From the NCBI RefSeq assembly GCF_014701195.1, contig NZ_AP018712.1, positions 824,501-888,500 on the forward strand: 64,000 nt of DNA. Direction: 5' to 3'. The notes beneath the pieces are model-generated. The model worked only from the letters and a program-made list of their open reading frames with translations, made no database searches and was not told where the DNA came from. Position numbers and translations under genes: made by a program. Source of the stretch: Tepiditoga spiralis (lineage in GTDB: Bacteria; Thermotogota; Thermotogae; Petrotogales; Petrotogaceae). Within the stretch, counting starts at the first letter, position 1. Every line of letters starts with the position of its first letter. Below, one piece after another: positions 25,195 through 55,155 of the stretch.

Positions 25195-25741
25195 AATGGA
25201 GGAAAATTATGTCAAAACAACATTCAAAAGTTCATGTAAATTATCATATATATACAGTTAAAGATGCAAAAGAAATGTTTAAGAATAGAGATATATACAT
25301 ATGGGGAGCTGGACAAAAAGGAAGAGGCTTTTTAAAAGCTTTACAAAGAAATGGTTTTAATGTTAAAGCTTTTCTCGATAGTTCTCCTTTACTTATTGGA
25401 ACAACCTATGAAAATATTCCAATACTAAATCCAATTGATGTTTTAGAAAATAAAAAATTATTGAATAATGCTTATATTCTTACTGCCAGTGTTGATAAAA
25501 AAAATAAAGAAATGTTTAAAATATGTGAAAGTTATGATTTAAAAAAAGGTCAAGATTTTATAAATATTCAAAAATTCACACCATATTATCCAGTAATAGA
25601 AATTTCTGGAGCATGTAATTTAAAATGTATTAGTTGCCCAAGAGGTGATTCAAGAAATAGGTTTAAAAAAAATGGATTTATGAGCATTGAAAATTATAAA
25701 AAAGTAATAAAAAAATTAATCAAAGAAATGCCATTTTTATA
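25195..25741 (+). repeat. 547-bp exact direct repeat, copy 1
   Basis: Identical by eye to 26613-27159. It begins a few bases before the ribosome-binding site and covers the first about 178 codons of each radical SAM gene. Weaker, mosaic similarity continues to and beyond the stop codons. Confidence 0.88.
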
Positions 25742-26501
25742 CCTTGTTGATTTATATATATGGGGAGATCCATTATTACACTCTGATTTAGATAAAATAA
25801 TAAAAATTAACAATGAATATGGTATTGCCAGTGGTATTTCAACAAATTTAAATTACGGGAAATACCTTGAAAAAGTAATAAAAGCCAAACCACCACAAAT
25901 CAGAATTTCTGTATCAGGTTATGGACCTGAGCACTATGAAATAACTCATACAGGTGGAAAATGGGATGTATTTTATAACAATCTTTTAAAATTGCATGAT
26001 TATATAGAAAAATATAAAACCAATACAATAGTAGAAGTATATTTTCACGTAAATAAAATAAATATTGGAGAATATATAAAAGTAAAAGAATTATGTGATA
26101 ATCTTAATTTTAGACTTAATTCAACCATTTCCATGGTATTTCACGATTATGCATTAGAATATGTTGAAACAGGTAAATTACCTGAAAATGCTAAAAAAGG
26201 TACAGAATTAATGCTTGTGTCCCTCGATGAAATGTTGGAAGATGCAAAACGAGAAAAAGAGAAAGATTGTCTTTTAAAAAGAATTGTTCCAGTAATAAAT
26301 TGGGATCTTTCTGTAATGCCGTGTTGTAATTATATATATAGAAAATTGGCGGATAACTATCTTGAAATTTCATTTGAAGAAATTATTAAATTAAGAGAAG
26401 AACATCCGCTATGTAAAACATGTCAAAAACATTCTTTACACAGATATTTTAATCCGTTATATTATATAGAATTAGTAGAAAAAAAATTAAAAAATATTTA
26501 A
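25209..26501 (+). CDS. Radical SAM protein with N-terminal Rossmann-like module, tandem copy 1
   Basis: 430 residues, ATG with TGGAGGA upstream. Residues of about 25-110 carry a Rossmann-like module (IYIWGAGQKGRGFLKALQ; VKAFLDSSPLLIGTTYENIP). The 4Fe-4S motif is CNLKCISC in EISGACNLKCISCPRGDS at about residue 137. The C-terminal cysteines (CLLKRIVPVINWDLSVMPCC and CKTCQKHSLHR) suggest an auxiliary cluster of SPASM/twitch type. It has the same 178 N-terminal residues as the gene at 26627, then differs by scattered substitutions (for example WGDPLLHSDL against [10 protein letters not shown]). The substrate is unknown; neighbours suggest a nucleotide sugar or a glycan carrier. Confidence 0.83.
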   Translation: MSKQHSKVHVNYHIYTVKDAKEMFKNRDIYIWGAGQKGRGFLKALQRNGFNVKAFLDSSPLLIGTTYENIPILNPIDVLENKKLLNNAYILTASVDKKNKEMFKICESYDLKKGQDFINIQKFTPYYPVIEISGACNLKCISCPRGDSRNRFKKNGFMSIENYKKVIKKLIKEMPFLYLVDLYIWGDPLLHSDLDKIIKINNEYGIASGISTNLNYGKYLEKVIKAKPPQIRISVSGYGPEHYEITHTGGKWDVFYNNLLKLHDYIEKYKTNTIVEVYFHVNKINIGEYIKVKELCDNLNFRLNSTISMVFHDYALEYVETGKLPENAKKGTELMLVSLDEMLEDAKREKEKDCLLKRIVPVINWDLSVMPCCNYIYRKLADNYLEISFEEIIKLREEHPLCKTCQKHSLHRYFNPLYYIELVEKKLKNI

Positions 26502-26522
26502 AAGTTTTAAAAAGTGAAAAGA

Positions 26523-26600
26523 ATGAATAAATGTCGTATATAGCATTTATAAGGATTTAAATTTTTTGAAGTAATGAAAATAAAGTCTTCATTATAAAAT
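26523..26600 (+). pseudogene. Vestige of the 5' end of a methyltransferase gene
   Basis: Between the two duplicated radical SAM genes, ATG AAT AAA TGT CGT ATA TAG reads M-N-K-C-R-I-stop. It aligns without gaps, including about 35 bases upstream, to the junction at 27900-27960 where the complete methyltransferase begins M-R-K-C-R-I-C. Further stops follow. This indicates that the tandem duplication included the start of the methyltransferase gene, whose upstream copy decayed. The 3' limit is uncertain. Confidence 0.55.
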
Positions 26601-26612
26601 TTATCTTACTAA

Positions 26613-27159
26613 AATGGAGGAAAATTATGTCAAAACAACATTCAAAAGTTCATGTAAATTATCATATATATACAGTTAAAGATGCAAAAGAAATGTTTAA
26701 GAATAGAGATATATACATATGGGGAGCTGGACAAAAAGGAAGAGGCTTTTTAAAAGCTTTACAAAGAAATGGTTTTAATGTTAAAGCTTTTCTCGATAGT
26801 TCTCCTTTACTTATTGGAACAACCTATGAAAATATTCCAATACTAAATCCAATTGATGTTTTAGAAAATAAAAAATTATTGAATAATGCTTATATTCTTA
26901 CTGCCAGTGTTGATAAAAAAAATAAAGAAATGTTTAAAATATGTGAAAGTTATGATTTAAAAAAAGGTCAAGATTTTATAAATATTCAAAAATTCACACC
27001 ATATTATCCAGTAATAGAAATTTCTGGAGCATGTAATTTAAAATGTATTAGTTGCCCAAGAGGTGATTCAAGAAATAGGTTTAAAAAAAATGGATTTATG
27101 AGCATTGAAAATTATAAAAAAGTAATAAAAAAATTAATCAAAGAAATGCCATTTTTATA
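26613..27159 (+). repeat. 547-bp exact direct repeat, copy 2
   Basis: Second copy of 25195-25741; the first mismatch is at 27160 (T against C at 25742). Confidence 0.88.
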
Positions 27160-27949
27160 TCTTGTTGATTTATATATATGGGGAGAGCCTTTATTAAATC
27201 CAGATTTAAGTAAAATAATAAAAATTAATAATGAATATGGGATTGCTAGTGGAATTTCAACAAACTTAAATTACGAAAAACATCTTGAGAAAGTAATAAA
27301 GTCTAAACCTCCACAAATTAGAGTTTCTGTATCAGGTTATGGACCTGAACATTATGAAATAACTCATACAGGTGGAAAATGGGATGTATTTTATAACAAT
27401 CTTTTAAAATTGCATGATTACATAGAAAAATACAAAACCAATACAATAGTAGAAGTATATTTTCACGTAAACAAAGTAAATATTGCTGAATATATAAAAG
27501 TAAAAGAATTATGTGATAATCTCGGTTTTAGAATTAATTTAACTATTTCAAGAGTTTTTCACGATTATGCATTAGAATATGTTGAAACAGGTAAATTACC
27601 TGAAAATGCTAAAAAGGGAGCAGAATTAATGCTTGTATCTCTTGACGAAATGTTAGAAGATGCTAAACGAGAAAAAGAAAAAGATTGTCTTTTGAAAAGA
27701 ATCGTTCCAGTAATAAATTGGGATCTTTCCGTAATGGCATGCTGTGATTATATATACAGAAAATTAGAAGATAATTATCTTGAAACTTCATTTGAAGAAA
27801 TTATCAAATTGAGAGAAGAACATACGTTGTGTAAAACATGTCAAAAATATGCTTTACACAGATATTCTAATCCATTATATTATACAAAGTTTGTAGAGAA
27901 AAAAATTAAAACGTATACAAAACTTTCAAAAGATGAAAATAATGCGTAA
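26627..27949 (+). CDS. Radical SAM protein with N-terminal Rossmann-like module, tandem copy 2
   Basis: 440 residues, with the same ribosome-binding site and first 178 codons as the gene at 25209. The WGAGQKGRGF module, CNLKCISC motif and C-terminal cysteines (WDLSVMACCDYIYRK; CKTCQKYALHR) are all intact, so both copies look functional. The C-terminus is 10 residues longer than copy 1 and runs into the methyltransferase gene (17-base overlap). Divergence confined to the second half suggests either gene conversion of the first half or selection for different substrate-binding regions. Confidence 0.83.
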   Translation: MSKQHSKVHVNYHIYTVKDAKEMFKNRDIYIWGAGQKGRGFLKALQRNGFNVKAFLDSSPLLIGTTYENIPILNPIDVLENKKLLNNAYILTASVDKKNKEMFKICESYDLKKGQDFINIQKFTPYYPVIEISGACNLKCISCPRGDSRNRFKKNGFMSIENYKKVIKKLIKEMPFLYLVDLYIWGEPLLNPDLSKIIKINNEYGIASGISTNLNYEKHLEKVIKSKPPQIRVSVSGYGPEHYEITHTGGKWDVFYNNLLKLHDYIEKYKTNTIVEVYFHVNKVNIAEYIKVKELCDNLGFRINLTISRVFHDYALEYVETGKLPENAKKGAELMLVSLDEMLEDAKREKEKDCLLKRIVPVINWDLSVMACCDYIYRKLEDNYLETSFEEIIKLREEHTLCKTCQKYALHRYSNPLYYTKFVEKKIKTYTKLSKDENNA

Positions 27950-36209: not shown

Positions 36210-37025
36210 ATGAGAATTAATCATAATTTAAATGCTATTAACGCTTGGAGAAACTTAGGTCACACTAACACTATGATTGGTAAATCTTTGGAAAAACTTT
36301 CTTCTGGTTTGAGAATTAATAGAGCTGGTGACGATGCTGCTGGTTTAGCTATTTCTGAAAAAATGAGAGCTCAAATTAAAGGTTATGATATGGCTACTAA
36401 AAATGCTCAAGATGGTATTTCCTTGATTCAAACCGCTGAAGGTGCTTTGACTGAAGTTCACTCTATGCTTCAAAGAATGAGAGAAATTTCTGTTCAAGCT
36501 GCTAATGACACCAATAACACTGAAGATAGAAATGCTCTTAAAAAAGAAATAACTCAACTACAAACTGAAATAAATAGAATTGGTTCTACTACTAAATTTA
36601 ATGGAAAATCTTTATTTGCTGCTAGCCAATCATTTAGCTTGCAAATTGGTCCTGATAAAGATACTAATTTAGTTCTTAATGTTAAATCTCAAGCTGTTAC
36701 AACAGGAACACTTACAATAAGTGGTATTTCTATAACTTCAAATTCGGCTGCACAAGGCGCAATAGCAAGTATTGATAATGCAATAAAAGTTGTTTCAAGC
36801 TTAAGAGCACAATTTGGAGCTTATCAAAATAGACTTGAACATACTGTTAATAATTTAAGTGTTTCAAGTGAAAATTTAACTGCTGCTGAATCTAGAATTA
36901 GAGATGTTGATATGGCTAAAGAAATGATGAAATTTACTAAACAACAAATTTTATTACAATCTTCTAACGCTATGCTAGCTCAAGCTAATCAAGCTCCTCA
37001 ACAAGTTCTTTCTTTATTAAGATAA
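36210..37025 (+). CDS. fliC: Flagellin, tandem copy 1
   Basis: 271 residues, ATG with GGAGGTGG upstream. It has the complete terminal D0/D1 domains of flagellin: [17 protein letters not shown] and [20 protein letters not shown] at the N-terminus, and [20 protein letters not shown] with [11 protein letters not shown] at the C-terminus. The central variable segment is only about 75 residues, so D2/D3 domains are absent. Codon use is biased to GCT/ACT/GGT, unlike the A-rich neighbours, as expected for a very highly expressed protein. Controlled by a sigma-28 promoter and probably by CsrA. The protein is secreted by the flagellar export apparatus and forms the filament. Confidence 0.97.
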
Positions 37026-37030
37026 TTTAA

Positions 37031-37042
37031 CCCAAGGATGGG
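37031..37042 (+). promoter_or_regulatory. CsrA-like hairpin in flagellin leader, copy 2
   Basis: Same CCCAAGGATGGG element as at 36168, between flagellin copies 1 and 2. There is no separate sigma-28 promoter here. Confidence 0.5.
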
Positions 37043-37072
37043 AAAAAATAAAAATAACATGGAGGTGGAATT

Positions 37073-37888
37073 ATGAGAATTAATCATAATTTAAATGCTA
37101 TTAACGCTTGGAGAAACTTAGGTCACACTAACACTATGATTGGTAAATCTTTGGAAAAACTTTCTTCTGGTTTGAGAATTAATAGAGCTGGTGACGATGC
37201 TGCTGGTTTAGCTATTTCTGAAAAAATGAGAGCTCAAATTAAAGGTTATGATATGGCTACTAAAAATGCTCAAGATGGTATTTCCTTGATTCAAACCGCT
37301 GAAGGTGCTTTGACTGAAGTTCACTCTATGCTTCAAAGAATGAGAGAAATTTCTGTTCAAGCTGCTAATGACACCAATAACACTGAAGATAGAAATGCTC
37401 TTAAAAAAGAAATAACTCAACTACAAACTGAAATAGACAGAATTGGTTCTACTACTAAGTTTAATGGAAAATCTTTGTTTGCCGCTAGCCAATCGTTTAG
37501 CTTGCAAATTGGTCCTGATAAAGATACTAATCTAGTTCTTAATGTTAAATCTCAAGCTGTTACAACAACAAAGCTTGGAATTAATTCACTTGCTATAGAT
37601 TCAAATACAAATGCTCAATCTGCTATATCTAGTATTGATGTAGCAATTAAAAAAGTTTCAAGCTTAAGAGCACAATTTGGAGCTTATCAAAATAGACTTG
37701 AACATACTGTTAATAATTTAAGTGTTTCAAGTGAAAATTTAACTGCTGCTGAATCTAGAATTAGAGATGTTGATATGGCTAAAGAAATGATGAAATTTAC
37801 TAAACAACAAATTTTATTACAATCTTCTAACGCTATGCTAGCTCAAGCTAATCAAGCTCCTCAACAAGTTCTTTCTTTATTAAGATAA
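37073..37888 (+). CDS. fliC: Flagellin, tandem copy 2
   Basis: 271 residues. The leader and terminal domains are identical to copy 1. Differences are confined to the centre, for example TTTKLGINSLAIDSNTNAQS where copy 1 has [20 protein letters not shown], and one Asn to Asp change near residue 122. No promoter or terminator lies between copies, so it is probably on one mRNA with copies 1 and 3. Equal length of all three copies implies substitution or conversion, not insertion, as the source of variety. Confidence 0.97.
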   Translation: MRINHNLNAINAWRNLGHTNTMIGKSLEKLSSGLRINRAGDDAAGLAISEKMRAQIKGYDMATKNAQDGISLIQTAEGALTEVHSMLQRMREISVQAANDTNNTEDRNALKKEITQLQTEIDRIGSTTKFNGKSLFAASQSFSLQIGPDKDTNLVLNVKSQAVTTTKLGINSLAIDSNTNAQSAISSIDVAIKKVSSLRAQFGAYQNRLEHTVNNLSVSSENLTAAESRIRDVDMAKEMMKFTKQQILLQSSNAMLAQANQAPQQVLSLLR

Positions 37889-37893
37889 TTTAA

Positions 37894-37905
37894 CCCAAGG
37901 ATGGG
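37894..37905 (+). promoter_or_regulatory. CsrA-like hairpin in flagellin leader, copy 3
   Basis: Same CCCAAGGATGGG element as at 36168, between flagellin copies 2 and 3. Confidence 0.5.
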
Positions 37906-37935
37906 AAAAAATAAAAATAACATGGAGGTGGAATT

Positions 37936-38751
37936 ATGAGAATTAATCATAATTTAAATGCTATTAACGCTTGGAGAAACTTAGGTCACACTAACACTAT
38001 GATTGGTAAATCTTTGGAAAAACTTTCTTCTGGTTTGAGAATTAATAGAGCTGGTGACGATGCTGCTGGTTTAGCTATTTCTGAAAAAATGAGAGCTCAA
38101 ATTAAAGGTTATGATATGGCTACTAAAAATGCTCAAGATGGTATTTCCTTGATTCAAACCGCTGAAGGTGCTTTGACTGAAGTTCACTCTATGCTTCAAA
38201 GAATGAGAGAAATTTCTGTTCAAGCTGCTAATGACACCAATAACACTGAAGATAGAAATGCTCTTAAAAAAGAAATAACTCAACTACAAACTGAAATAAA
38301 TAGAATTGGTTCTACTACTAAGTTTAATGGAAAAACTTTGTTTACATCTACTGCTGCGTTTAGTTTACAAATTGGTCCTGATAAAGATACTAATCTAGTT
38401 CTTAAAGTTAGTTCTCAAAGTATCACAACAACAAAACTTGGAATTGGTTCAATTAACATAGCCTCAAATACAAGTTCTCAAATTGCTATATCTAACATTG
38501 ATGGAGCTATTAAACAAATTTCAAGCTTAAGAGCACAATTTGGTGCTTATCAAAATAGACTTGAACATACTGTTAATAATTTAAGTGTTTCAAGTGAAAA
38601 TTTAACTGCTGCTGAATCTAGAATTAGAGATGTTGATATGGCTAAAGAAATGATGAAATTTACTAAACAACAAATTTTATTACAATCTTCTAACGCTATG
38701 CTAGCTCAAGCTAATCAAGCTCCTCAACAAGTTCTTTCTTTATTAAGATAA
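37936..38751 (+). CDS. fliC: Flagellin, tandem copy 3
   Basis: 271 residues. It is the most different of the three in the centre (GKTLFTSTAAFSLQIG; TTTKLGIGSINIASNTSSQI) while keeping the same terminal domains. It is followed by a strong terminator, which ends the flagellin transcript. Together the three genes could build a filament with zones of different flagellins or provide surface variants. Confidence 0.97.
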   Translation: MRINHNLNAINAWRNLGHTNTMIGKSLEKLSSGLRINRAGDDAAGLAISEKMRAQIKGYDMATKNAQDGISLIQTAEGALTEVHSMLQRMREISVQAANDTNNTEDRNALKKEITQLQTEINRIGSTTKFNGKTLFTSTAAFSLQIGPDKDTNLVLKVSSQSITTTKLGIGSINIASNTSSQIAISNIDGAIKQISSLRAQFGAYQNRLEHTVNNLSVSSENLTAAESRIRDVDMAKEMMKFTKQQILLQSSNAMLAQANQAPQQVLSLLR

Positions 38752-42955: not shown

Positions 42956-42999
42956 AAAAGTAATGGTGTTTTTGAATTGATTATAAAGAGGTGTTTTTT

Positions 43000-43575
43000 A
43001 TGGTTTTTAAAGGAATTCTTTTTACACCAAAAGATGAATTTTATTCGTTTAAAAATTTCTTTCATAAAAACGATGATACAATCATAATAAAAGATATTGA
43101 ACCAGAAAAATTAGAATTAACAACTTCTTCGGGTTTTGTGTCTTATTTTCTTGTTGAAGAGTTTGAAAGAGTTTATGGAATAAAAAGGTACTTAAAACCT
43201 GATTATAGAATGAAAAAATATTTAAAAACAATGTATGTTGATTATATTTCTGATGAAATACGTGAACTTTATGGTGATTATATTGAAGTAATTTCAAAGT
43301 ATATGGGACTTGGTGTTGTTATTGAATCTTTAAATGAATTAATTAAAACTCAAGATGTTATTTCAAATTATGAATTTTGGATTGACGATTTAGCAAAAAA
43401 TGTTGAAGGTAAATATAGAGAAGCCGTTTCACAAAAAATAACAAAGTTTGCAAATATCTATCTTATAAAGGTTTATGAAAAACTCTTTCAAAAAAATATA
43501 GAATTATTGAGTATTCATAGTTCTGAAATAACTTATAAGATACTTGAAACTTCTTTAATTCAAAAAACTTTTTAG
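43000..43575 (+). CDS. Unknown protein leading the ATPase/nuclease array
   Basis: 191 residues from the ATG at 43000, with AAAGAGGTG about 7 bases upstream (a GTG at 42991 sits in the ribosome-binding site). I do not recognise a family. It is a soluble, charged, mostly helical protein with no signal peptide or membrane segment. The beginning (FKGILFTPKDEFYSFKNFF) looks beta-rich, and the C-terminal half is amphipathic helix. It ends 15 bases before the first array gene and has the only visible promoter of the array, so it is probably co-transcribed with all five nuclease genes. Confidence 0.7.
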   Translation: MVFKGILFTPKDEFYSFKNFFHKNDDTIIIKDIEPEKLELTTSSGFVSYFLVEEFERVYGIKRYLKPDYRMKKYLKTMYVDYISDEIRELYGDYIEVISKYMGLGVVIESLNELIKTQDVISNYEFWIDDLAKNVEGKYREAVSQKITKFANIYLIKVYEKLFQKNIELLSIHSSEITYKILETSLIQKTF

Positions 43576-43590
43576 TATGAGGTGAAAGAA

Positions 43591-45138
43591 GTGAAACGAT
43601 TCAATACAACAGGAGTGTGTGTTCCTAAAAAACATTACATGGTTAATATTGAAAATAAATTAAATCAAATAATGAATTTAATAGAAAATGGTGAATACTT
43701 TACAATAAATAAACCAAGACAGTTTGGTAAAACTACTACTATGTTTTTACTTGAAAAAAAGTTGAAAAACAAGTATACAGTAATTTCTATAAGTTTTGAA
43801 GGTATAGGAGATGTTCCTTTTCAAAATGAAGAAGTATTTTCTGAAACTTTTTTAAATTTAATGAAAAAAAGTCTATCTTTTACAAACAAAGAAGTATCTG
43901 AAAAAATAAAAGATAATAAAATGAGTATGAGTCAATTATCAGAAGAAATAACAAGAATAAATAAATTAACCAATAAAAAGATAGTATTAATGATAGATGA
44001 AGTAGATAAAAGCTCTAATAATCAACTGTTTTTAAACTTTTTAGGTATGCTTAGGACTAAGTATTTAGAAGCAAATAAAGAAAAAGATTATACATTTTAT
44101 AGTGTAATCTTAGCAGGAGTACACGATGTTAAAAGCTTAAAAACTCATATAAGACCTAATGAAGAAATAAAGTATAATAGTCCTTGGAATATAGCTGTAG
44201 ACTTTGACATAGACTTAGCTTTTAATCCTGATGAAATTTCTACTATGATAGTTGATTATTATAAAGATAGAGGTTATGAACTAAATAATGTTAAGCATAT
44301 TTCTGAAAAATTATACTATTACACATCAGGTTATCCATTTTTAGTTAGTAAACTTTGTCAAATTATTGATGAAGAAATGAAGGTGGAAAAAGAATGGTCT
44401 GATGAAATTTTACAAGATGCTGTAAAGATTATTCTAAAAAAACAAAATACTAACTTTGAATCACTTATTAAAAATTTAGAAAATAACGAGGATATATATA
44501 ACTTAGTATATAAAATAATAATAGATGGAAAAGAAATTAAATATAACATAGATAATCCAACAATAAATTTATGTTTAATGTATGGAATTTTAAAAAACAA
44601 AAAAGGTACTTTAAAGGTTCAAAACAAAATTTATGAGCAAAGAATATACGATTATATGGCATCAAAGATAGAAACATCACAAAATGTAGATACTGAAAGA
44701 TACAACTTTAGAGATAACTTCATAATTGGAGACAAATTAAATATGGAACTCGTTTTAAAAAAGTTTCAGCTTTTTATGAAAGAACAATACTCAGAAAAAG
44801 ATGTAAATTTTGTAGAAAGAAATGGCACTTTAATATTTTTAGCTTTTATAAAACCAATAATAAATGGAAAAGGCTTTGACTTTAAAGAAGTTCAAATTTC
44901 TGAAGAAAAGAGACTTGATGTTGTTATTACATATAGTAAGTACAAATATATTATTGAAATGAAAAAGTGGTATGGAGAAGAGTATCATAAACGTGGTATT
45001 AAGCAACTTGAACAGTATCTTGATATTAACAATCAAAATAAAGGTTATTTAGTAATTTTTGACACCAGAAAAAAATCTAATAAAAAACAGGAAAATATAA
45101 AAATTAAAAATAAAGAAATTTTTGCCGTTTGGGTTTAA
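43591..45138 (+). CDS. AAA-ATPase-like/PD-(D/E)XK nuclease protein, array copy 1 (alleles A/X)
   Basis: 515 residues from a GTG at 43591 (GAGGTG upstream); other copies begin ATG at the same codon. Residues 1-72 are conserved and hold the P-loop (KPRQFGKTTTMFLLEKKL). Residues of about 73-128 form variable segment 1, allele A (GDVPFQNEEVFSETFLNL). Residues 129-299 are conserved, with Walker B IVLMIDEVDKSSNN and ILAGVHDVKSLK. Residues of about 300-369 are variable segment 2, allele X (EDIYNLVYKIIIDGKE). Residues 370-515 are invariant and hold a PD-(D/E)XK nuclease core (RLDVVITYSKYKYIIEMKKW, with Asp443, Glu456, Lys458). Such proteins are common in Thermotogota and anaerobes; no function is proven. 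DNA cleavage driven or gated by ATP is an inference. Confidence 0.85.
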   Translation: MKRFNTTGVCVPKKHYMVNIENKLNQIMNLIENGEYFTINKPRQFGKTTTMFLLEKKLKNKYTVISISFEGIGDVPFQNEEVFSETFLNLMKKSLSFTNKEVSEKIKDNKMSMSQLSEEITRINKLTNKKIVLMIDEVDKSSNNQLFLNFLGMLRTKYLEANKEKDYTFYSVILAGVHDVKSLKTHIRPNEEIKYNSPWNIAVDFDIDLAFNPDEISTMIVDYYKDRGYELNNVKHISEKLYYYTSGYPFLVSKLCQIIDEEMKVEKEWSDEILQDAVKIILKKQNTNFESLIKNLENNEDIYNLVYKIIIDGKEIKYNIDNPTINLCLMYGILKNKKGTLKVQNKIYEQRIYDYMASKIETSQNVDTERYNFRDNFIIGDKLNMELVLKKFQLFMKEQYSEKDVNFVERNGTLIFLAFIKPIINGKGFDFKEVQISEEKRLDVVITYSKYKYIIEMKKWYGEEYHKRGIKQLEQYLDINNQNKGYLVIFDTRKKSNKKQENIKIKNKEIFAVWV

Positions 45139-45157
45139 TAAATATGAGGTGAAAAAA

Positions 45158-46687
45158 ATGAAACGATTCAATACAACAGGAGTGTGTGTTCCTAAAAAGC
45201 ATTACATGGTTAATATTGAAAATAAATTAAAGCAAATAATGAAATTAATAGAAAATGGTGAATACTTTACAATAAATAAACCAAGACAGTTTGGTAAAAC
45301 TACTACTATGTTTTTACTTGAAAAAAAGTTAGAAAATGAGTATACAGTAATTTCCATAAGTTTTGAAGGTATTGGTTCCATAATAATGGAAGATGAAAAA
45401 GAGTTTGTTCAAAGTTTTTTAGAAGATATAACAGATTCATTAAATATAAAAATAGATAAAAAAATAATAAAAACTATGAAAGAACTATCAAAAACAATAA
45501 CAAAAATAGCTAAAGCAAGTGAAAAAAAGATAGTACTAATGATAGATGAAGTAGATAAAAGCTCTAATAATCAACTATTTTTAAACTTTTTAGGCATGCT
45601 CAGAACAAAGTATTTAGAAGCAAACAAAGGAAAAGACTATACATTTTACAGTATAATCTTAGCTGGAGTACACGATGTTAAAAGCTTAAAAACTCATATA
45701 AGGCCTAATGAAGAAATAAAGTATAACAGTCCGTGGAATATAGCTGTAGACTTTGACATAGACTTATCTTTTAATTCAGATGAAATTTCTACTATGATAG
45801 TTGATTATTATAATGATAGAGGTTATGAACTCAATAATGTTAAATACATTTCTGAAAAATTATACTATTATACATCAGGTTATCCTTTTTTAGTTAGTAA
45901 ACTTTGTCAAATTATTGATGAAGAAATGAAAGTAGAAAAAGAATGGACTGATGAAGTTCTTCAAGATGCCGTAAAGATTATTCTAAAAAAACAAAACACT
46001 AACTTTGAATCATTAATTAAAAATTTAGAGAATAATAAAAAACTTTATAATTTTATTTTTGATTTAATCATAAATGGTATGGAATATGAATACAATAAAT
46101 TTGAGCCTATAATACATTTTGCTGAAATATATGGCATAATAAAAGATGATAATGGAAAGGTCAAAATTCAAAATAAAATATATGAACAGATCATATATAA
46201 TTACATGATATCTAAATTGAGTATAGCTTCAAGGCAAGATTTTTCTCGTTACAACTTTAGAGATAACTTCATAATTGGAGACAAATTAAATATGGAACTC
46301 GTTTTAAAAAAGTTTCAGCTTTTTATGAAAGAACAATACTCAGAAAAAGATGTAAATTTTGTAGAAAGAAATGGTACTTTAATATTTTTAGCTTTTATAA
46401 AACCAATAATAAATGGAAAAGGCTTTGACTTTAAAGAAGTTCAAATTTCTGAAGAAAAGAGACTTGATGTTGTTATTACATATAGTAAGTACAAATATAT
46501 TATTGAAATGAAAAAGTGGTATGGAGAAGAGTATCATAAACGTGGTATTAAGCAACTTGAACAGTATCTTGATATTAACAATCAAAATAAAGGTTATTTA
46601 GTAATTTTTGACACCAGAAAAAAATCTAATAAAAAACAGGAAAATATAAAAATTAAAAATAAAGAAATTTTTGCCGTTTGGGTTTAA
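45158..46687 (+). CDS. AAA-ATPase-like/PD-(D/E)XK nuclease protein, array copy 2 (alleles B/Y)
   Basis: 509 residues from the ATG at 45158, 6 bases after GAGGTG; the 12-codon extension back to 45122 reads the previous gene's tail out of frame and is not real. P-loop and Walker B are identical to copy 1. Variable segment 1 is allele B (SIIMEDEKEFVQSFLED through TKIAKASE), 6 residues shorter than allele A. Variable segment 2 is allele Y (KKLYNFIFDLIINGMEYEYN through SIASRQDFS). The C-terminal nuclease block is the same as copy 1 at the protein level. Confidence 0.85.
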   Translation: MKRFNTTGVCVPKKHYMVNIENKLKQIMKLIENGEYFTINKPRQFGKTTTMFLLEKKLENEYTVISISFEGIGSIIMEDEKEFVQSFLEDITDSLNIKIDKKIIKTMKELSKTITKIAKASEKKIVLMIDEVDKSSNNQLFLNFLGMLRTKYLEANKGKDYTFYSIILAGVHDVKSLKTHIRPNEEIKYNSPWNIAVDFDIDLSFNSDEISTMIVDYYNDRGYELNNVKYISEKLYYYTSGYPFLVSKLCQIIDEEMKVEKEWTDEVLQDAVKIILKKQNTNFESLIKNLENNKKLYNFIFDLIINGMEYEYNKFEPIIHFAEIYGIIKDDNGKVKIQNKIYEQIIYNYMISKLSIASRQDFSRYNFRDNFIIGDKLNMELVLKKFQLFMKEQYSEKDVNFVERNGTLIFLAFIKPIINGKGFDFKEVQISEEKRLDVVITYSKYKYIIEMKKWYGEEYHKRGIKQLEQYLDINNQNKGYLVIFDTRKKSNKKQENIKIKNKEIFAVWV

Positions 46688-46706
46688 TAAATATGAGGTG
46701 AAAAAA

Positions 46707-48260
46707 ATGAAACGATTCAATACAACAGGAGTGTGTGTTCCTAAAAAGCATTACATGGTTAATATTGAAAATAAATTAAAACAAATAATGAAATTAATAG
46801 AAAATGGTGAATACTTTACAATAAATAAACCAAGACAGTTTGGTAAAACTACTACTATGTTTTTACTTATGAAAAAATTAAGAAAAACCAATAATTATCT
46901 CCCTATAAAAATTAGTTTTGAAGGTATAGGAGATATGCCATTTCAAAATGAAGAAGTATTTTCTAAAACATTTTTGAGTTTAATAAAAAGAAATTTGATT
47001 TTTACAGACGAAGAAATCTCTGAAAAAATAGAAATAAAAAAAATGAGTATGAATCAATTATCAGAAGAAATAACAAGAATAAATAAATTAACCAATAAAA
47101 AGATAGTATTAATGATAGATGAAGTAGATAAGAGCTCTAACAATCAACTATTTTTAAACTTTTTAGGTATGCTTAGAACAAAATACTTGAATCAAATAGA
47201 AGAAGAAGATAAAAGTTTTTACAGTATAATCTTAGCTGGAGTACACGATGTTAAAAGTTTAAAAACTCATATAAGGCCTAATGAAGAAATAAAGTATAAC
47301 AGTCCGTGGAATATAGCAGTAGACTTTGACATAGATTTATCTTTTAATTCAGGTGAAATTTCTACTATGATAGTTGATTATTATAATGATAGAGGTTATG
47401 AACTCAATAATGTTAAATACATTTCTGAAAAATTATACTATTATACATCAGGTTATCCTTTTTTAGTTAGTAAACTTTGTCAAATTATTGATGAAGAAAT
47501 GAAGATAAAAAAAGAATGGACAGATGAAGTTCTTCAAGATTCCGTAAAGATTATTCTAAAAAAGCAAAACACTAACTTTGAATCATTAATTAAAAATTTA
47601 GAGAATAATGAAGATATATATAACTTAGTATATAAAATAATAATAGATGGAAAAGAAGTCAAATATAATATGTATAATCCAATAATAAATCTATGTTTAA
47701 TGTATGGTATATTAAAAAACGAAAATGGTACTTTAAAGGTTCAAAACAAAATTTATGAACAATTAATATATGATTATATGGCATCAAAAATAGAAACATC
47801 ACAAAATGTGGATACTGAAAGATACAACTTTAGAGATAACTTCATAATTGGAGACAAATTAAATATGGAACTCGTTTTAAAAAAGTTTCAGCTTTTTATG
47901 AAAGAACAATACTCAGAAAAAGATGTAAATTTTGTAGAAAGAAATGGCACTTTAATATTTTTAGCTTTTATAAAACCAATAATAAATGGAAAAGGCTTTG
48001 ACTTTAAAGAAGTTCAAATTTCTGAAGAAAAGAGACTTGATGTTGTTATTACATATAGTAAGTACAAATATATTATTGAAATGAAAAAGTGGTATGGAGA
48101 AGAGTATCATAAACGTGGTATTAAGCAACTTGAACAGTATCTTGATATTAACAATCAAAATAAAGGTTATTTAGTAATTTTTGACACCAGAAAAAAATCT
48201 AATAAAAAACAGGAAAATATAAAAATTAAAAATAAAGAAATTTTTGCCGTTTGGGTTTAA
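46707..48260 (+). CDS. AAA-ATPase-like/PD-(D/E)XK nuclease protein, array copy 3 (alleles A'/X)
   Basis: 517 residues from the ATG at 46707. It is the most divergent copy. After the P-loop it has MKKLRKTNNYLPIKISFEG where the others have a shorter segment. Segment 1 is a drifted form of A (GDMPFQNEEVFSKTFLSLIK). It also differs after Walker B (LNQIEEEDKSFYS instead of LEANKGKDYTFYS). Segment 2 is X with several substitutions (NMYNPIINLCLMYG). The terminal nuclease block is nevertheless identical to its neighbours, which points to ongoing homogenisation of that block. Confidence 0.85.
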   Translation: MKRFNTTGVCVPKKHYMVNIENKLKQIMKLIENGEYFTINKPRQFGKTTTMFLLMKKLRKTNNYLPIKISFEGIGDMPFQNEEVFSKTFLSLIKRNLIFTDEEISEKIEIKKMSMNQLSEEITRINKLTNKKIVLMIDEVDKSSNNQLFLNFLGMLRTKYLNQIEEEDKSFYSIILAGVHDVKSLKTHIRPNEEIKYNSPWNIAVDFDIDLSFNSGEISTMIVDYYNDRGYELNNVKYISEKLYYYTSGYPFLVSKLCQIIDEEMKIKKEWTDEVLQDSVKIILKKQNTNFESLIKNLENNEDIYNLVYKIIIDGKEVKYNMYNPIINLCLMYGILKNENGTLKVQNKIYEQLIYDYMASKIETSQNVDTERYNFRDNFIIGDKLNMELVLKKFQLFMKEQYSEKDVNFVERNGTLIFLAFIKPIINGKGFDFKEVQISEEKRLDVVITYSKYKYIIEMKKWYGEEYHKRGIKQLEQYLDINNQNKGYLVIFDTRKKSNKKQENIKIKNKEIFAVWV

Positions 48261-48279
48261 TAAATATGAGGTGAAAAAA

Positions 48280-49827
48280 ATGAAACGATTCAATACAACA
48301 GGAGTGTGTGTTCCTAAAAAACATTACATGGTTAATATTGAAAATAAATTAAAGCAAATAATGAAATTAATAGAAAATGGTGAATACTTTACAATAAACA
48401 AACCAAGACAGTTTGGTAAAACTACTACTATGTTTTTACTTGAAAAAAAGTTAAAAAACAAGTATACAGTAATTTCTATAAGTTTTGAAGGTATAGGAGA
48501 TATGCCATTTCAAAATGAAGAAGTATTTTCTGAAACTTTTTTAAATTTAATGAAAAAAAGTCTATCTTTTACAAACAAAGAAGTATCTGAAAAAATAAAA
48601 GATAAAAAAATGAGTATGAGTCAATTATCAGAAGAAATAACAAGAATAAATAAATTAACCAATAAAAAGATAGTATTAATGATAGATGAAGTAGATAAGA
48701 GCTCTAACAATCAACTATTTTTAAACTTTTTAGGTATGCTTAGGACTAAGTATTTAGAATCAAACAAAGGAAAAGACTATACATTTTACAGTATAATCTT
48801 AGCTGGAGTACACGATGTTAAAAGTTTAAAAACTCATATAAGGCCTAATGAAGAAATAAAGTATAACAGTCCGTGGAATATAGCTGTAGACTTTGACATA
48901 GACTTATCTTTTAATTCAGATGAAATTTCTACTATGATAGTTGATTATTATAATGATAGAGGTTATGAACTCAATAATGTTAAATACATTTCTGAAAAAT
49001 TATACTATTATACATCAGGTTATCCTTTTTTAGTTAGTAAACTTTGTCAAATTATTGATGAAGAAATGAAAGTAAAAAAAGAATGGACAGATGAAGTTCT
49101 TCAAGATGCCGTAAAGATTATTCTAAAAAAACAAAACACTAACTTTGAATCATTAATTAAAAATTTAGAGAATAATAAAAAACTTTATAATTTTATTTTT
49201 GATTTAATCATAAATGGTATGGAATATGAATACAATAAATTTGAGCCTATAATACATTTTGCTGAAATATATGGCATAATAAAAGATGATAATGGAAAGG
49301 TCAAAATTCAAAATAAAATATATGAACAGATCATATATAATTACATGATATCTAAATTGAGTATAGCTTCAAGGCAAGATTTTTCTCGTTACAACTTTAG
49401 AGATAACTTCATAATTGGAGACAAATTAAATATGGAACTCGTTTTAAAAAAGTTTCAGCTTTTTATGAAAGAACAATACTCAGAAAAAGATGTAAATTTT
49501 GTAGAAAGAAATGGTACTTTAATATTTTTAGCTTTTATAAAACCAATAATAAATGGAAAAGGCTTTGACTTTAAAGAAGTTCAAATTTCTGAAGAAAAGA
49601 GACTTGATGTTGTTATTACATATAGTAAGTACAAATATATTATTGAAATGAAAAAGTGGTATGGAGAAGAGTATCATAAACGTGGTATTAAGCAACTTGA
49701 ACAGTATCTTGATATTAACAATCAAAATAAAGGTTATTTAGTAATTTTTGACACCAGAAAAAAATCTAATAAAAAACAGGAAAATATAAAAATTAAAAAT
49801 AAAGAAATTTTTGCCGTTTGGGTTTAA
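48280..49827 (+). CDS. AAA-ATPase-like/PD-(D/E)XK nuclease protein, array copy 4 (alleles A/Y)
   Basis: 515 residues from the ATG at 48280. Segment 1 is allele A, almost as in copy 1 (GDMPF for GDVPF). Segment 2 is allele Y with the same bases as copy 2. It therefore combines the first half of a copy 1-like gene with the second half of a copy 2-like gene. P-loop, Walker B and nuclease motifs are all intact. Confidence 0.85.
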   Translation: MKRFNTTGVCVPKKHYMVNIENKLKQIMKLIENGEYFTINKPRQFGKTTTMFLLEKKLKNKYTVISISFEGIGDMPFQNEEVFSETFLNLMKKSLSFTNKEVSEKIKDKKMSMSQLSEEITRINKLTNKKIVLMIDEVDKSSNNQLFLNFLGMLRTKYLESNKGKDYTFYSIILAGVHDVKSLKTHIRPNEEIKYNSPWNIAVDFDIDLSFNSDEISTMIVDYYNDRGYELNNVKYISEKLYYYTSGYPFLVSKLCQIIDEEMKVKKEWTDEVLQDAVKIILKKQNTNFESLIKNLENNKKLYNFIFDLIINGMEYEYNKFEPIIHFAEIYGIIKDDNGKVKIQNKIYEQIIYNYMISKLSIASRQDFSRYNFRDNFIIGDKLNMELVLKKFQLFMKEQYSEKDVNFVERNGTLIFLAFIKPIINGKGFDFKEVQISEEKRLDVVITYSKYKYIIEMKKWYGEEYHKRGIKQLEQYLDINNQNKGYLVIFDTRKKSNKKQENIKIKNKEIFAVWV

Positions 49828-49846
49828 TAAATATGAGGTGAAAAAA

Positions 49847-51376
49847 ATGAAACGATTCAATACAACAGGAGTGTGTGTTCCTAAAAAGCATTACATGGTT
49901 AATATTGAAAATAAATTAAAGCAAATAATGAAATTAATAGAAAATGGTGAATACTTTACAATAAATAAACCAAGACAGTTTGGTAAAACTACTACTATGT
50001 TTTTACTTGAAAAAAAGTTAGAAAATGAGTATACAGTAATTTCCATAAGTTTTGAAGGTATTGGTTCCATAATAATGGAAGATGAAAAAGAGTTTGTTCA
50101 AAGTTTTTTAGAAGATATAACAGATTCATTAAATATAAAAATAGATAAAAAAATAATAAAAACTATGAAAGAACTATCAAAAACAATAACAAAAATAGCT
50201 AAAGCAAGTGAAAAAAAGATAGTATTAATGATAGATGAAGTAGATAAAAGCTCTAATAATCAACTATTTTTAAACTTTTTAGGCATGCTCAGAACAAAGT
50301 ATTTAGAAGCAAACAAAGGAAAAGACTATACATTTTACAGTATAATCTTAGCTGGAGTACACGATGTTAAAAGCTTAAAAACTCATATAAGGCCTAATGA
50401 AGAAATAAAGTACAACAGTCCGTGGAATATAGCTGTAGACTTTGACATAGACTTATCTTTTAATTCAGATGAAATTTCTACTATGATAGTTGATTATTAT
50501 AATGATAGAGGTTATGAACTCAATAATGTTAAATACATTTCTGAAAAATTATACTATTATACATCAGGTTATCCATTTTTAGTTAGTAAACTTTGTCAAA
50601 TTATTGATGAAGAAATGAAAGTAAAAAAAGAATGGACAGATGAAGTTCTTCAAGATGCCGTAAAGATTATTCTAAAAAAACAAAACACTAACTTTGAATC
50701 ATTAATTAAAAATTTAGAAAATAATGAAGATATATATAACTTAGTATATAAAATAATAATAGATGGAAAAGAAGTTAAATATAATATAGATAATCCAACA
50801 ATAAATCTATGTTTAATGTATGGTATATTAAAAAACGAAAATGGCACTTTAAAGGTTCAAAACAAAATTTATGAACAAAGAATATACGATTATATGGCAT
50901 CAAAGATAGAAACATCACAAAATGTAGATACTGAAAGATACAACTTTAGAGATAACTTCATAATTGGAGACAAATTAAATATGGAACTCGTTTTAAAAAA
51001 GTTTCAGCTTTTTATGAAAGAACAATACTCAGAAAAAGATGTAAATTTTGTAGAAAGAAATGGTACTTTAATATTTTTAGCTTTTATAAAACCAATAATA
51101 AATGGAAAAGGCTTTGACTTTAAAGAAGTTCAAATTTCTGAAGAAAAGAGACTTGATGTTGTTATTACATATGGTAAGTACAAATATATTATTGAAATGA
51201 AAAAGTGGTATGGTGAAGAATATCATAAACGTGGTATTAAGCAACTTGAACAGTATCTTGATATTAACAATCAAAATAAAGGTTATTTAGTAATTTTTGA
51301 CACCAGAAAAAAATCTAATAAAAAACAGGAAAATATAAAAATTAAAAATAAAGAAATTTTTGCCGTTTGGGTTTAA
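49847..51376 (+). CDS. AAA-ATPase-like/PD-(D/E)XK nuclease protein, array copy 5 (alleles B/X)
   Basis: 509 residues from the ATG at 49847. Segment 1 is allele B with the same sequence as copy 2; segment 2 is allele X as in copies 1 and 3. It is the reciprocal combination to copy 4. One substitution (Ser to Gly in VVITYGKYKYIIE) next to the nuclease site distinguishes it. No terminator follows; truA starts 26 bases after the stop. Confidence 0.85.
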   Translation: MKRFNTTGVCVPKKHYMVNIENKLKQIMKLIENGEYFTINKPRQFGKTTTMFLLEKKLENEYTVISISFEGIGSIIMEDEKEFVQSFLEDITDSLNIKIDKKIIKTMKELSKTITKIAKASEKKIVLMIDEVDKSSNNQLFLNFLGMLRTKYLEANKGKDYTFYSIILAGVHDVKSLKTHIRPNEEIKYNSPWNIAVDFDIDLSFNSDEISTMIVDYYNDRGYELNNVKYISEKLYYYTSGYPFLVSKLCQIIDEEMKVKKEWTDEVLQDAVKIILKKQNTNFESLIKNLENNEDIYNLVYKIIIDGKEVKYNIDNPTINLCLMYGILKNENGTLKVQNKIYEQRIYDYMASKIETSQNVDTERYNFRDNFIIGDKLNMELVLKKFQLFMKEQYSEKDVNFVERNGTLIFLAFIKPIINGKGFDFKEVQISEEKRLDVVITYGKYKYIIEMKKWYGEEYHKRGIKQLEQYLDINNQNKGYLVIFDTRKKSNKKQENIKIKNKEIFAVWV

Positions 51377-51402: not shown

Positions 51403-52149
51403 ATGAGTAAAAAAAGAATGGTTGCTGCAACAGTTGCATACGATGGAACAGAATTTTTTGGTTTTCAGGGACAACCAAAGTTTAGAACTGTACAAGGAGA
51501 GTTTGAATTAGCTCTTCAAAAAATATTTAAACAAAAAGTAATAAGTTTTGGAGCTGGTAGAACAGATACGGGTGTTCATGCTTGGGGACAAATAATGGCT
51601 TTTAAAGTTCCAAATGAAAAGATGAGCATAAAAAATATCAAAGATGCTATGAATTCTGTTTTACCAAAAGATATTTATATAAGAGAGGTAAAAGAAGTAC
51701 CAGAAAATTTTAGTCCAAGGTTTCATGCAAAAAAAAGAATTTATCATTACTTTATAATGCCAAAAAGAGATCCAAATATTTTTTTAAGAAATAGAGTTTG
51801 GTGGTTTCCTTATGATTTAGATATTCATAAAATGCGAGAAGGCGCTAAGTATTTTATAGGTGAACACGATTTTACAAGCTTTAAAACAGGTAATGACGAA
51901 AGAAATCCAGTAAGAACTATTGAAAAAATAAGAATTATAAAATTAAACAATGGTTTAATTTTAATAAGAGTAGAAGGCATTTCATTTTTAAGAAGAATGG
52001 TTAGAAATATGGTTGGAACTCTTGTAAAGGTGGGAACAGGCACATGGGAACCGGAAAAAATAAAAGAAATTTTAGAAGCAAAAGACAGATCGCAAGCTCC
52101 AGCTTCAGCTCCTGGAGAAGGACTTTATTTTTATTCTGTTTTATTTTAA
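51403..52149 (+). CDS. truA: tRNA pseudouridine synthase A
   Basis: 248 residues, ATG with TAGGAGGAA upstream. The catalytic aspartate is in [17 protein letters not shown]; the N-terminal [17 protein letters not shown] and the C-terminal [19 protein letters not shown] match TruA. It converts uridines 38-40 in the tRNA anticodon arm to pseudouridine. With no terminator upstream it may be read from the array promoter, though a promoter within array copy 5 cannot be excluded. Its 3' end overlaps the next frame by 106 bases. Confidence 0.96.
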
Positions 52150-53252
52150 TAAATTTATCAATATTTTCTGCTGACAGAATAGGTCTTGTTTATAATGGAC
52201 CTAAGTTTTATTTTAATGATGTGCTATATACATTATATGGTTATTATGATGTAAGTATTCCTCCAATTACAAATGAAGATAAAATTGAAGTTTCTTACAA
52301 AAATAATTTATTTTATATTAATTACAAAGGAAATGAAGTTTCTTGTAAATTAAATGAATTAAATGATACTTTTTCAAAACTTTTAAATAGATCACTAAAA
52401 AGTTTAATAATAATACCTGATAGAAGTTATATAACAAAAAATGATGCTACTTCAACTGTATCTTTTGAACTTTGGAATAAAAAAATGAAAATTCCTTTAT
52501 TGGTTAATAATATAAAATATGATTATTTTTTATATCCACCACTTGGTAAAAGACTTGTACACGTACCAGATAGATGGATAAACTTAAAAATTTTAGGTAT
52601 TAAAGATACTATAAAATTAAATGGAAAAAAATTAATTGCTCCATTGAATTTGAATATTCCACCATCAATAATAAATATCGAATATGGAATGGTAAACCAA
52701 AAAATTGATCTAACTGATTATTCTAGCAATACTTATGTTTTAAACCTACAAAAACAAAATTTATACAAATCAATAAATACAAAAATATTAAACGTTTTTA
52801 ATTTAAACAGTGGAATATTTTTATATGGAATTCCAAATTCTTTATGGATAAGTAATGGCGAAGTTAAACTCACTGAAGATAAATTTTATTGTAATTATGG
52901 TGAATTAAAAAATATATCTGGAAATGTAATTTTTGCTTATGAAAAAGATAATACCGTTTATATAATTAGTAGTTCAGGTAAATTTTTTACCCTTGGAACA
53001 AAAAATATATCAAAGGATTTTGGGCGTTCTCCATTATCAATAAAAGTTTATAAAAATTATATAGAAATAAAAACTTTTAAACTTGAAACATATAGAGTAA
53101 ACTTTGATGGAGGAATTTATAAAGAAGGTAATGTTTATAATTTATTTTTAGATATTCCTGATACTAAACCTAAAAAAAGTTATGAAACTAATAAGTATAT
53201 TGTAGAAATCAATGATAACAAAGTTTTTATTTATAAAAAAAATATAAATTAA
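52044..53252 (+). CDS. Predicted exported protein of unknown function
   Basis: Up to 402 residues in a different frame from truA. The only ATG giving the whole frame is at 52044, within truA. A hydrophobic segment ([17 protein letters not shown]) preceded by Arg-Arg looks like a signal peptide cut after SA, so the mature part begins near [15 protein letters not shown]. The true start may be a non-standard codon closer to that segment, since no ATG, GTG or TTG lies between. The mature part is beta-rich, with repeated short strands (for example [15 protein letters not shown]), suggesting a cell-envelope protein. I do not recognise a family. A terminator follows. Confidence 0.7.
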
Positions 53253-53350: not shown

Positions 53351-53367
53351 GAAATGAGGTGATGAAA

Positions 53368-55155
53368 ATGAAAAAAAGACTTCCAATAGGACAAAGTGAT
53401 TTTAAAACTATAATTGAAGAAGATATGTACTTTGTAGATAAAAGTTTATTAATCAAAGAGGTTATTGAAAGTGGAAATGTTTTATTAATAACAAGGCCAA
53501 GAAGGTTTGGGAAAACTCTCAGTCAATCTATGATGAAGTACTTTTTTGATATTACTCAAAACAATGAACACCTCTTTAAAAACTTAAAAATATATAAAGA
53601 AAAGAACATAATAGAAAAACATTTAAATAAACATCCTGTTATATACATCACCTTTAAAGATTTAAAGTCTAATAACTTAAAGAAAATGCATGCTTTATTA
53701 GCTATGGAGCTTTCAAGATTGTATTTAAAACATAAGTATGTTTTAGATGTTTTAGATAATGAAGAAAAAATTATATATGATAAAATAATGGGTAGAGAAG
53801 CTTTAGATGCTGATTATGAAAATTGTATAAGAAGTTTATCTGAATATATGGAAAGATACTATGGTAAAAAGGTAATAATATTAATAGACGAATACGACAC
53901 TCCAATTCAACAAGCCTACTTACATGGTTACTATGATGAAATAATATCTTTAATTGGTAACTTATTTGGAATGGCTTTAAAAGATAATGTATACCTTGAA
54001 AAAGCAGTTCTTACTGGTATAACAAGAGTTTCTAAAGAAAGTATCTTTACTGGTGTGAATAACTTAAAGGTTTCTACTGTATTGAATGAACTATTCAATG
54101 ATAAGTATGGATTAACTAAAGAAGAAGTAGAAGAAACATTGAAGTATTATGAACTTGAATATGAAGAAAAAGAAGTTATAGATTGGTACAATGGTTATAA
54201 CTTTGGTGGTGTTGAAATATACAATCCTTTTTCTATTATAAACTTAGTAGACGAAAAAAAGATAAGACCATATTGGATGAATACGAGTGGAAATTATTTA
54301 ATAAGAAAGTTAATAAAAGAAGGAACTGTTAATATAAAAGATAGTGTAGAAAAATTAATAAACGGAGAAGAAGTAGAGTGCGAAATAATAGAAACAATGG
54401 TTTATGGTGATTTAAACTTAAACAGTGAAAGTGCAATTTGGACATTATTTTTATTTAGTGGTTACTTAAAGTGGACGAGTAAAAAAAGAAAAAATAATAT
54501 AACAATGTATAAAGTAAAGATACCAAATGAAGAAGTAAAAGATTTTTTTGTACAAACAGTTAGAAATATGTTGAGAGAATCAAATATAAGTATCGATAAT
54601 ATGCTTTTGAATTTAAAAGTAGGAAGAATAAAAACCTTTACAGACCAATTTAAAGATTTAACGATGAATACATTGAGTTACTTTGATATTAGTGGAAAAG
54701 AACCGGAAAGGTTTTATCATGGATTAATACTTGGAATGAGTGTTGGATTAAAAGAAGAGTACATAATAAAGAGTAATAGAGAAACAGGACTTGGAAGAGC
54801 TGATGTTATATTAATTCCAAAAGATAAAACAGATAAAGGAATAATAATAGAGTTTAAAAAGTACAATAAAGATGAAGATAAAAGTTTAAAAGACAGTGCA
54901 AAAAATGGATTAAAACAAATAAATGAAAAGAAGTATGAAGAAGAAATAAAAAGTTATGGAATAAACAATATAATAAAAGTAGCAATATCCTTTGATAAAA
55001 AAGAAATTGAAATTGTTAGTAATTTGGATAAAGATGTTGAATTAACAGATATTGAAAAAGTAGCAAAGAACATGATTGAAAAAGGATTAGATGTAAATAT
55101 GATTTCTGAATTAACAGGCATTTCAGTAGAAAAGATAAAAAATATGCTTAATTAA
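53368..55155 (+). CDS. AAA-ATPase-like protein with PDDEXK_9 (DUF1703) nuclease domain
   Basis: 595 residues from the ATG at 53368 (GAGGTG 6 bases upstream). The N-terminus (LPIGQSDFKTIIEEDMYFVD) and P-loop (LLITRPRRFGKTLSQSMMKY) are those of the AAA-ATPase_like family (PF09820). Walker B is KKVIILIDEYDTPIQQAY. The C-terminal nuclease is GLGRADVILIPK followed by KGIIIEFKKYNKDE, the D...E-x-K pattern of DUF1703. Related in design to the five-gene array at 43.6-51.4 kb but a separate subfamily with little sequence in common. The final 25 residues resemble the tail of the Rpn-like protein (MIEKGLDVNMISELTGIS). Function unknown; the family is often multi-copy in one genome. Confidence 0.88.
   Translation: MKKRLPIGQSDFKTIIEEDMYFVDKSLLIKEVIESGNVLLITRPRRFGKTLSQSMMKYFFDITQNNEHLFKNLKIYKEKNIIEKHLNKHPVIYITFKDLKSNNLKKMHALLAMELSRLYLKHKYVLDVLDNEEKIIYDKIMGREALDADYENCIRSLSEYMERYYGKKVIILIDEYDTPIQQAYLHGYYDEIISLIGNLFGMALKDNVYLEKAVLTGITRVSKESIFTGVNNLKVSTVLNELFNDKYGLTKEEVEETLKYYELEYEEKEVIDWYNGYNFGGVEIYNPFSIINLVDEKKIRPYWMNTSGNYLIRKLIKEGTVNIKDSVEKLINGEEVECEIIETMVYGDLNLNSESAIWTLFLFSGYLKWTSKKRKNNITMYKVKIPNEEVKDFFVQTVRNMLRESNISIDNMLLNLKVGRIKTFTDQFKDLTMNTLSYFDISGKEPERFYHGLILGMSVGLKEEYIIKSNRETGLGRADVILIPKDKTDKGIIIEFKKYNKDEDKSLKDSAKNGLKQINEKKYEEEIKSYGINNIIKVAISFDKKEIEIVSNLDKDVELTDIEKVAKNMIEKGLDVNMISELTGISVEKIKNMLN

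Follow-up and report, generated by a model that had tools for sequence, protein, structure and literature searches.

Two reassorted variable segments in a tandem array of ATPase–nuclease genes of the vent bacterium Tepiditoga spiralis

The HsdS protein of type I restriction systems carries interchangeable target-recognition segments between conserved blocks, and these segments are moved by homologous recombination. Among ATPase–nucleases, proteins of the PF09820 type are scattered over bacteria, sometimes greatly expanded and without known function; in Cardinium cCpun, the DUF1703 family (PF09820, AAA-ATPase_like, plus PF08011, PDDEXK_9) has undergone expansion with intragenic recombination, and a horizontal origin was proposed (PMC6387759). 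The Rpn nucleases (PDDEXK_2) have a rapidly varying domain and a demonstrated role in phage defense (PMC10327210). In archaeal Orc1-2, specific DNA binding is given by the ISM, located between Walker A and Walker B, together with the winged helix (PMC9738581). Here we describe five tandem genes of Tepiditoga spiralis in which two variable segments are set between near-identical ATPase and nuclease blocks. The organism is a vent bacterium.

The window analyzed, the whole stretch of 64,000 nucleotides, corresponds to positions 824501–888500 of the circular, 2,502,404-bp chromosome of strain sy52T (PMC7734402). The array (43582–51376 of the window) consists of five intact, co-directional ORFs on the + strand, separated by 19-nt spacers: g1 (43582–45138, with a GTG start at 43582 or 43591), g2 (45158–46687), g3 (46707–48260), g4 (48280–49827) and g5 (49847–51376). 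Each encodes ~510 aa with an AAA-ATPase, a predicted winged helix and a PD-(D/E)XK nuclease, and an RBS-like GAGGTGAA lies ahead of the start in all five full-length copies. No terminator-like site was found between the array genes, which, lying in line, are probably co-expressed; given a conserved 194-aa ORF of unassigned function (42991–43575, +) close before g1, a single transcript is likely. In 19 family members having truA and the flanks, this ORF directly precedes truA (here at 51403–52149, +) and the array is missing between them, showing that the array sits in this junction. The neighbors are a FliD-like gene, the 194-aa ORF, truA and a 402-aa ORF (52044–53252), which shares ~100 bp with the 3′ end of truA, read in a different frame, and may have a later true start. 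Neither methyltransferase or restriction subunits nor a site-specific recombinase were found beside the array. Two other tandem sets occur in the window: three 271-aa flagellin genes (36210–38751) with near-identical ends and differing centers (~residues 130–200), a similar constant–variable–constant plan, and two near-identical radical-SAM-like genes (430 and 440 aa; 25209–27949) in a glycan/polysaccharide gene region.

Alignment of the five genes bore out the mosaic described in the earlier note, with two variable segments, V1 and V2, whose limits (residues 73–128 and 300–369) are right in the numbering of the first copy. V1 is of class A in g1 (43810–43974) and g4 (48499–48663), class A′ in g3 (46932–47096) and class B in g2 (45377–45523) and g5 (50066–50212). 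V2 is of class X in g1 (44488–44697), g3 (47610–47819) and g5 (50726–50935) and of class Y in g2 (46037–46246) and g4 (49177–49386), all on the + strand. The order A/X, B/Y, A′/X, A/Y, B/X was thus correct, and both parental and both recombinant combinations of A/B with X/Y are present; a sixth array-type copy elsewhere in the genome (C1:1767617–1769150) adds another B/X. The shared blocks had been called identical, but are better described as near-identical: DNA identity between array copies is mostly 90–100%, g3 has two more small divergent patches (~residues 56–71 and 160–171), and the middle block of g1 is also synonymously diverged. Between array copies, DNA identity is 54–69% for A vs. 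B and ~82–85% for A vs. A′ in V1, and 62–73% for X vs. Y in V2. In V1, g2 and g5 match at all synonymous and nonsynonymous sites, but their V2 segments differ (pS 0.61, pN 0.32); g2 and g4 show the reverse, with V2 alike and V1 differing. The pattern is a mosaic of blocks rather than point variation. Our own implementation of a PHI-type test, the kind of recombination test that had been called for, gave a strong signal (mean neighbor-site incompatibility 0.010 vs. 0.474 after shuffling, with 0 of 500 shuffles as low). An antigen repertoire, also considered previously, was not supported, because all copies are full-length and intact, lack an obvious signal peptide and are probably co-expressed; nor does the array, with five of five copies full-length, follow the plan of silent-cassette antigenic variation, in which a single expressed gene is accompanied by partial cassettes that are silent.

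To place the segments in the protein, we used a predicted model of g2 (P0002; 509 aa, nine sequences) of middling confidence (pLDDT 74.5, pTM 0.61). By DSSP, V1 forms helices at residues 80–95 and 107–120, between β2 (63–68) and Walker B (125–130), while V2 (294–363) comprises helices 294–304 and 317–324, a β-hairpin (328–337) and a helix (340–353), which we read as a winged helix. The variation is therefore clustered in the model, in the β2–Walker B segment and the winged helix. The C-terminal end is predicted to be an α/β domain with the nuclease motif, and no C-terminal repeat sensor is seen. The best fold matches were the archaeal ATPases 2fna and 2qen (query TM-scores 0.42–0.45), followed by ORC/Cdc6 (~0.29–0.36), RuvB, NLRs and Avs3/Avs4. 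A fold search of BFVD gave mostly generic AAA matches, and sequence searches of the PDB gave nothing useful, one weak profile match being taken as chance.

At the sequence level, P0001 (31.2 bits) and P0002 (30.8 bits) exceed the PF09820 cut-off of 26.1. PDDEXK_9 (PF08011) is missing from the array proteins, which have borderline matches to Mrr_cat/PDDEXK_3 instead; the nearby gene at 53359–55155 (+) matches PF08011 at 74 bits. PF14516 (AAA_35) is matched by P0002 (55.3 bits, cut-off 27) and by 5 of 9 S1-type proteins, S1 being the array family, and not, at E 0.1, by P0001, whose V1 is of class A. PF01637 is matched by one of the nine (E 0.0027), and neither P0001 nor P0002 matches PF12784 (Rpn/PDDEXK_2). 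A predicted catalytic motif, LDVVITY(S/G)KYKYIIEMKKW (D...E-x-K), is present in all six S1 copies. The fold matches, taken with the role of the ISM and winged helix in Orc1-2, make it plausible that V1 and V2 form a composite recognition site. Direct contact of V1 with DNA, an idea suggested by the position of the Orc1 ISM, is weakened by its net charge of −6 to +3; for so neutral or acidic a segment, sensing of a protein is as likely as DNA contact or more so.

The array proteins have many relatives in the same genome, which holds 61 PF09820 matches. We took four paralogue families: S1 (the array family, six copies), S2 (21 dispersed mosaic copies, including 53359–55155, which carries PF09820 and PDDEXK_9), S3 (20 copies) and S4 (12 copies). 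The predicted nuclease motif is kept in 21 of 21 S2 and 19 of 20 S3 copies, and Walker A is intact in nearly all copies of both. In all four families, V1 is at the same place, after the preceding strand and before Walker B, and is the least conserved segment or among the least conserved; a second variable region lies between the ATPase and the nuclease. All four also show a recombination signal, none of 300–500 shuffles per family being as low. The paralogue sets of five other genomes have a mean V1 identity of 28–45% vs. 51–92% elsewhere, V2 being less marked. Two side observations concern related genes: a cluster in a related genome (L046:2118–15252) has tandem AAA_35-type genes interleaved with PF09820/PDDEXK_9 genes, both of which look mosaic, and a PDDEXK_2 (Rpn-like) gene in the window (9167–10096) has an in-frame EQGI repeat run and a C-terminal tail resembling the S2 variable tail.

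The distances in V1 and in the second segment are uncorrelated (r −0.08 in S2; r 0.08 for V1 vs. V3 in S3). With one outlier gene set apart, the S3 copies fall into two main classes of v0 (a short N-terminal patch), four of V1 and two of V2, and 15 of the 16 possible combinations are present among 19 genes, which we read as free reassortment. Random reassortment would be expected to give ~12 (P 0.011 without the outlier and 0.13 with it). We considered whether the excess evenness reflects selection against duplicates; since it hinges on dropping the one outlier and is absent in S2, we do not claim such selection, and the evenness is suggestive only.

The V1 classes of S3 are old. In a comparison with 24 S3 genes from a related genus, 77% of own–own pairs were less alike in V1 than the best cross-genus match, and the corresponding figure for the middle and nuclease blocks was 0%. 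The nuclease blocks of the own copies form one clade (support 98), and a single clade of own copies was rejected for V1 (AU p 6e-52, from a quick tree of 48 columns). This shows that V1 classes in S3 predate the split from the other genus, and that the nuclease blocks have been homogenized within the genome while V1 classes are common to two genera. Recent horizontal transfer of the shared classes is disfavored, as the best cross-genus V1 matches have a pS of ~0.37. For S1, V1 of class A is closer to that of a Clostridium homologue (z 13.6) than to the class B V1 of the next gene (z 7.7). Recombination between paralogues via shared blocks reassorts V1/V2 classes. S1, the three other families, the five other genomes and the cross-genus comparison all point to the reading of the earlier note, in which discrete segments are shuffled while the ATPase and the nuclease around them stay fixed.

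As for function, V1 and V2 may form a recognition part that senses a ligand, and binding would act through an ATP-dependent switch to activate the nuclease. If the ligands vary, as phages, plasmids and other invading DNA would, many simultaneous combinations should be favored. Taken whole, the best explanation is a genome-wide ATPase/winged-helix/PD-(D/E)XK repertoire, of which the array forms one locus and in which a fixed engine and nuclease are combined with reassorted modules for recognition, and we give this about an even chance of being right. Defense against mobile DNA is the preferred role, but it is the least certain step and could go either way. Against the explanation as a whole are the lack of a visible defense island around the array, PADLOC matches that are weak and partial (the best being PDC-M29B, 23 bits over 75 residues) and the charge of V1, which is unsuited to direct DNA contact. 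The array gene has no sequence match in phages, and neither it nor its neighbor matched viral contigs. A more far-reaching version, which we hold only tentatively, is an innate-immunity repertoire following the logic of MHC or NLR clusters, with dozens of ATPase–nucleases per genome, two modules drawn from ancient cross-genus pools and reassortment by gene conversion.

The main rival is selfish spread, in which the genes are small mobile units, the nuclease aids their copying, V1 and V2 pick the target or prevent self-cutting, and the diversity brings the host no benefit. We consider this rather unlikely, though some observations fit it. Among the S2 and S3 copies (L083–L119), those of S3 are self-contained promoter–ORF–terminator units, with a common promoter-like TATGGTATAAT box, RBS and intrinsic terminator and unrelated sequence beyond, several sharing a further downstream stretch. 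Copies are many and dispersed, and their occurrence is patchy: of 37 other Petrotogales genomes, 29 lack any PF09820 match, G021 has one, and the seven related genomes have 10–32 each. The array junction is empty in the 19 relatives, and S1 has no close relatives in the other Petrotogales genomes examined. Its distant cousins in the order (24–31% identity, full or long matches) are confined to seven genomes of one genus, which we take to be Marinitoga, as such a gene is found on a Marinitoga plasmid; plasmid matches are at most 40% identical. The closest S1 relatives found (50–57%) come from Clostridium guangxiense and from Acidobacteriota/Aminicenantes MAGs (G038, G039 and G040); these MAGs have 41–57 relatives each, with V1 types common to more than one genome. 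The simplest reading is that S1 was probably acquired horizontally and then duplicated locally. On the other hand, neither conserved ends nor a partner recombinase turned up in the flanks read, and tandem co-directional arrays occur. The ancient V1 classes in two genera and the strong purifying selection within classes, described below, point to a role at the level of the host, but a selfish element would need working proteins as well.

It is also conceivable, but improbable, that the segments are neutral islands, in which gene conversion homogenizes the rest of the gene and a diverged loop, no longer crossed, drifts without function. The long exact repeats make it plain that gene conversion or unequal crossing-over is at work, and the synonymous divergence between X and Y in S1 V2 is high (pS 0.61–0.73). 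Between copies, the variable segments have pN/pS ratios of 0.42–0.98 (S1: V1 0.83, V2 0.43; S2: V1 0.47, V2 0.75; S3: V1 0.80, V3 0.98, short V2 stretch 0.49), and the constant ATPase and nuclease blocks mostly 0.1–0.25. Within classes, that is, between S2 or S3 copies at 88–99.9% DNA identity in the segment concerned, the ratio is 0.10–0.30 for V1 and 0.04–0.18 for V2/V3; these are uncorrected Nei–Gojobori proportions, and conditioning on identity limits their range, but the contrast is large all the same. A freely drifting loop would hold pN/pS near 1, so the S2 and S3 classes are discrete, constrained alleles under purifying selection, and the neutral variation that the earlier note had allowed for did not appear. 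Drift is also hard to reconcile with S2 and S3 V1, where synonymous divergence is only slightly above that of the flanks and nonsynonymous divergence far higher, with the passage of V segments between copies, and with variable islands that recur at one structural position in four families and other lineages.

Finally, we considered the reliability of the assembly. The sy52T genome was assembled with Newbler from 454 and MiSeq data, and primer walking along PCR products served to close the gaps (PMC7734402). Exact repeats of 831 and 709 bp cross array gene junctions. Reads of these types are typically shorter than such repeats, and array gene order or copy number could therefore be wrong. That mis-joined repeats made the recombinant combinations is nevertheless extremely improbable, given the primer walking, the distinguishing middle-block sites that bridge the V1–V2 phase inside genes, including g2, g4 and g5, and the equally mosaic S2, S3 and S4 copies with unique flanks and independently assembled genomes.

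These results single out one small, constrained, ancient and shuffled segment, V1, as the place to look for specificity, and A/X, A/Y, B/X and B/Y are natural chimeras from which the effect of each module can be separated. Should the repertoire prove defensive, it would combine trans-genus polymorphism with concerted evolution in a family of immune-like genes, something rare in bacteria.

Several known systems resemble S1 in part. The archaeal ATPases (PF01637; SSO1545, 2fna, and PABY2304, 2qen) and Orc1/Cdc6 likewise carry a winged helix after their P-loop ATPase, but the TM-scores are low and PF01637 is matched by only one of the nine S1-type proteins; Orc1, unlike S1, has no nuclease. The STAND NTPases Avs3/Avs4 and the NLRs are similar in ATPase fold and in the logic of a nuclease effector, whereas S1 has no C-terminal sensor repeat domain, has its nuclease at the C-terminus and is only ~510 aa long. 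HsdS works in the same way, by segments swapped between constant blocks; in the array, however, no methyltransferase, HsdR or site-specific recombinase adjoins, and ATPase and nuclease are in one chain. The Rpn proteins are, like S1, PD-(D/E)XK proteins with a varying part (PMC10327210), but have no ATPase, a C-terminal variable part and no sequence match to S1. The Cardinium DUF1703 family also has many intact, recombining ATPase–nuclease paralogues in one genome (PMC6387759). S1 differs from it in having no PDDEXK_9, which S2 does carry. Expansion and recombination were already known from Cardinium (PMC6387759); what appears to be new is that the modules hold fixed positions, that their combinations are nearly complete and that alleles are shared between genera. 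Among the open-licence papers searched that name these domains, the Cardinium study is the only one whose listed title and abstract deal with growth of the family, and we found no reports there of fixed variable modules or trans-genus classes; with that scope the novelty is provisional. The DUF1703 proteins have an average identity of 39% and show no homogenization (PMC6387759), whereas the Tepiditoga genes have near-identical constant blocks, variation in fixed modules, near-complete reassortment and classes common across genera.
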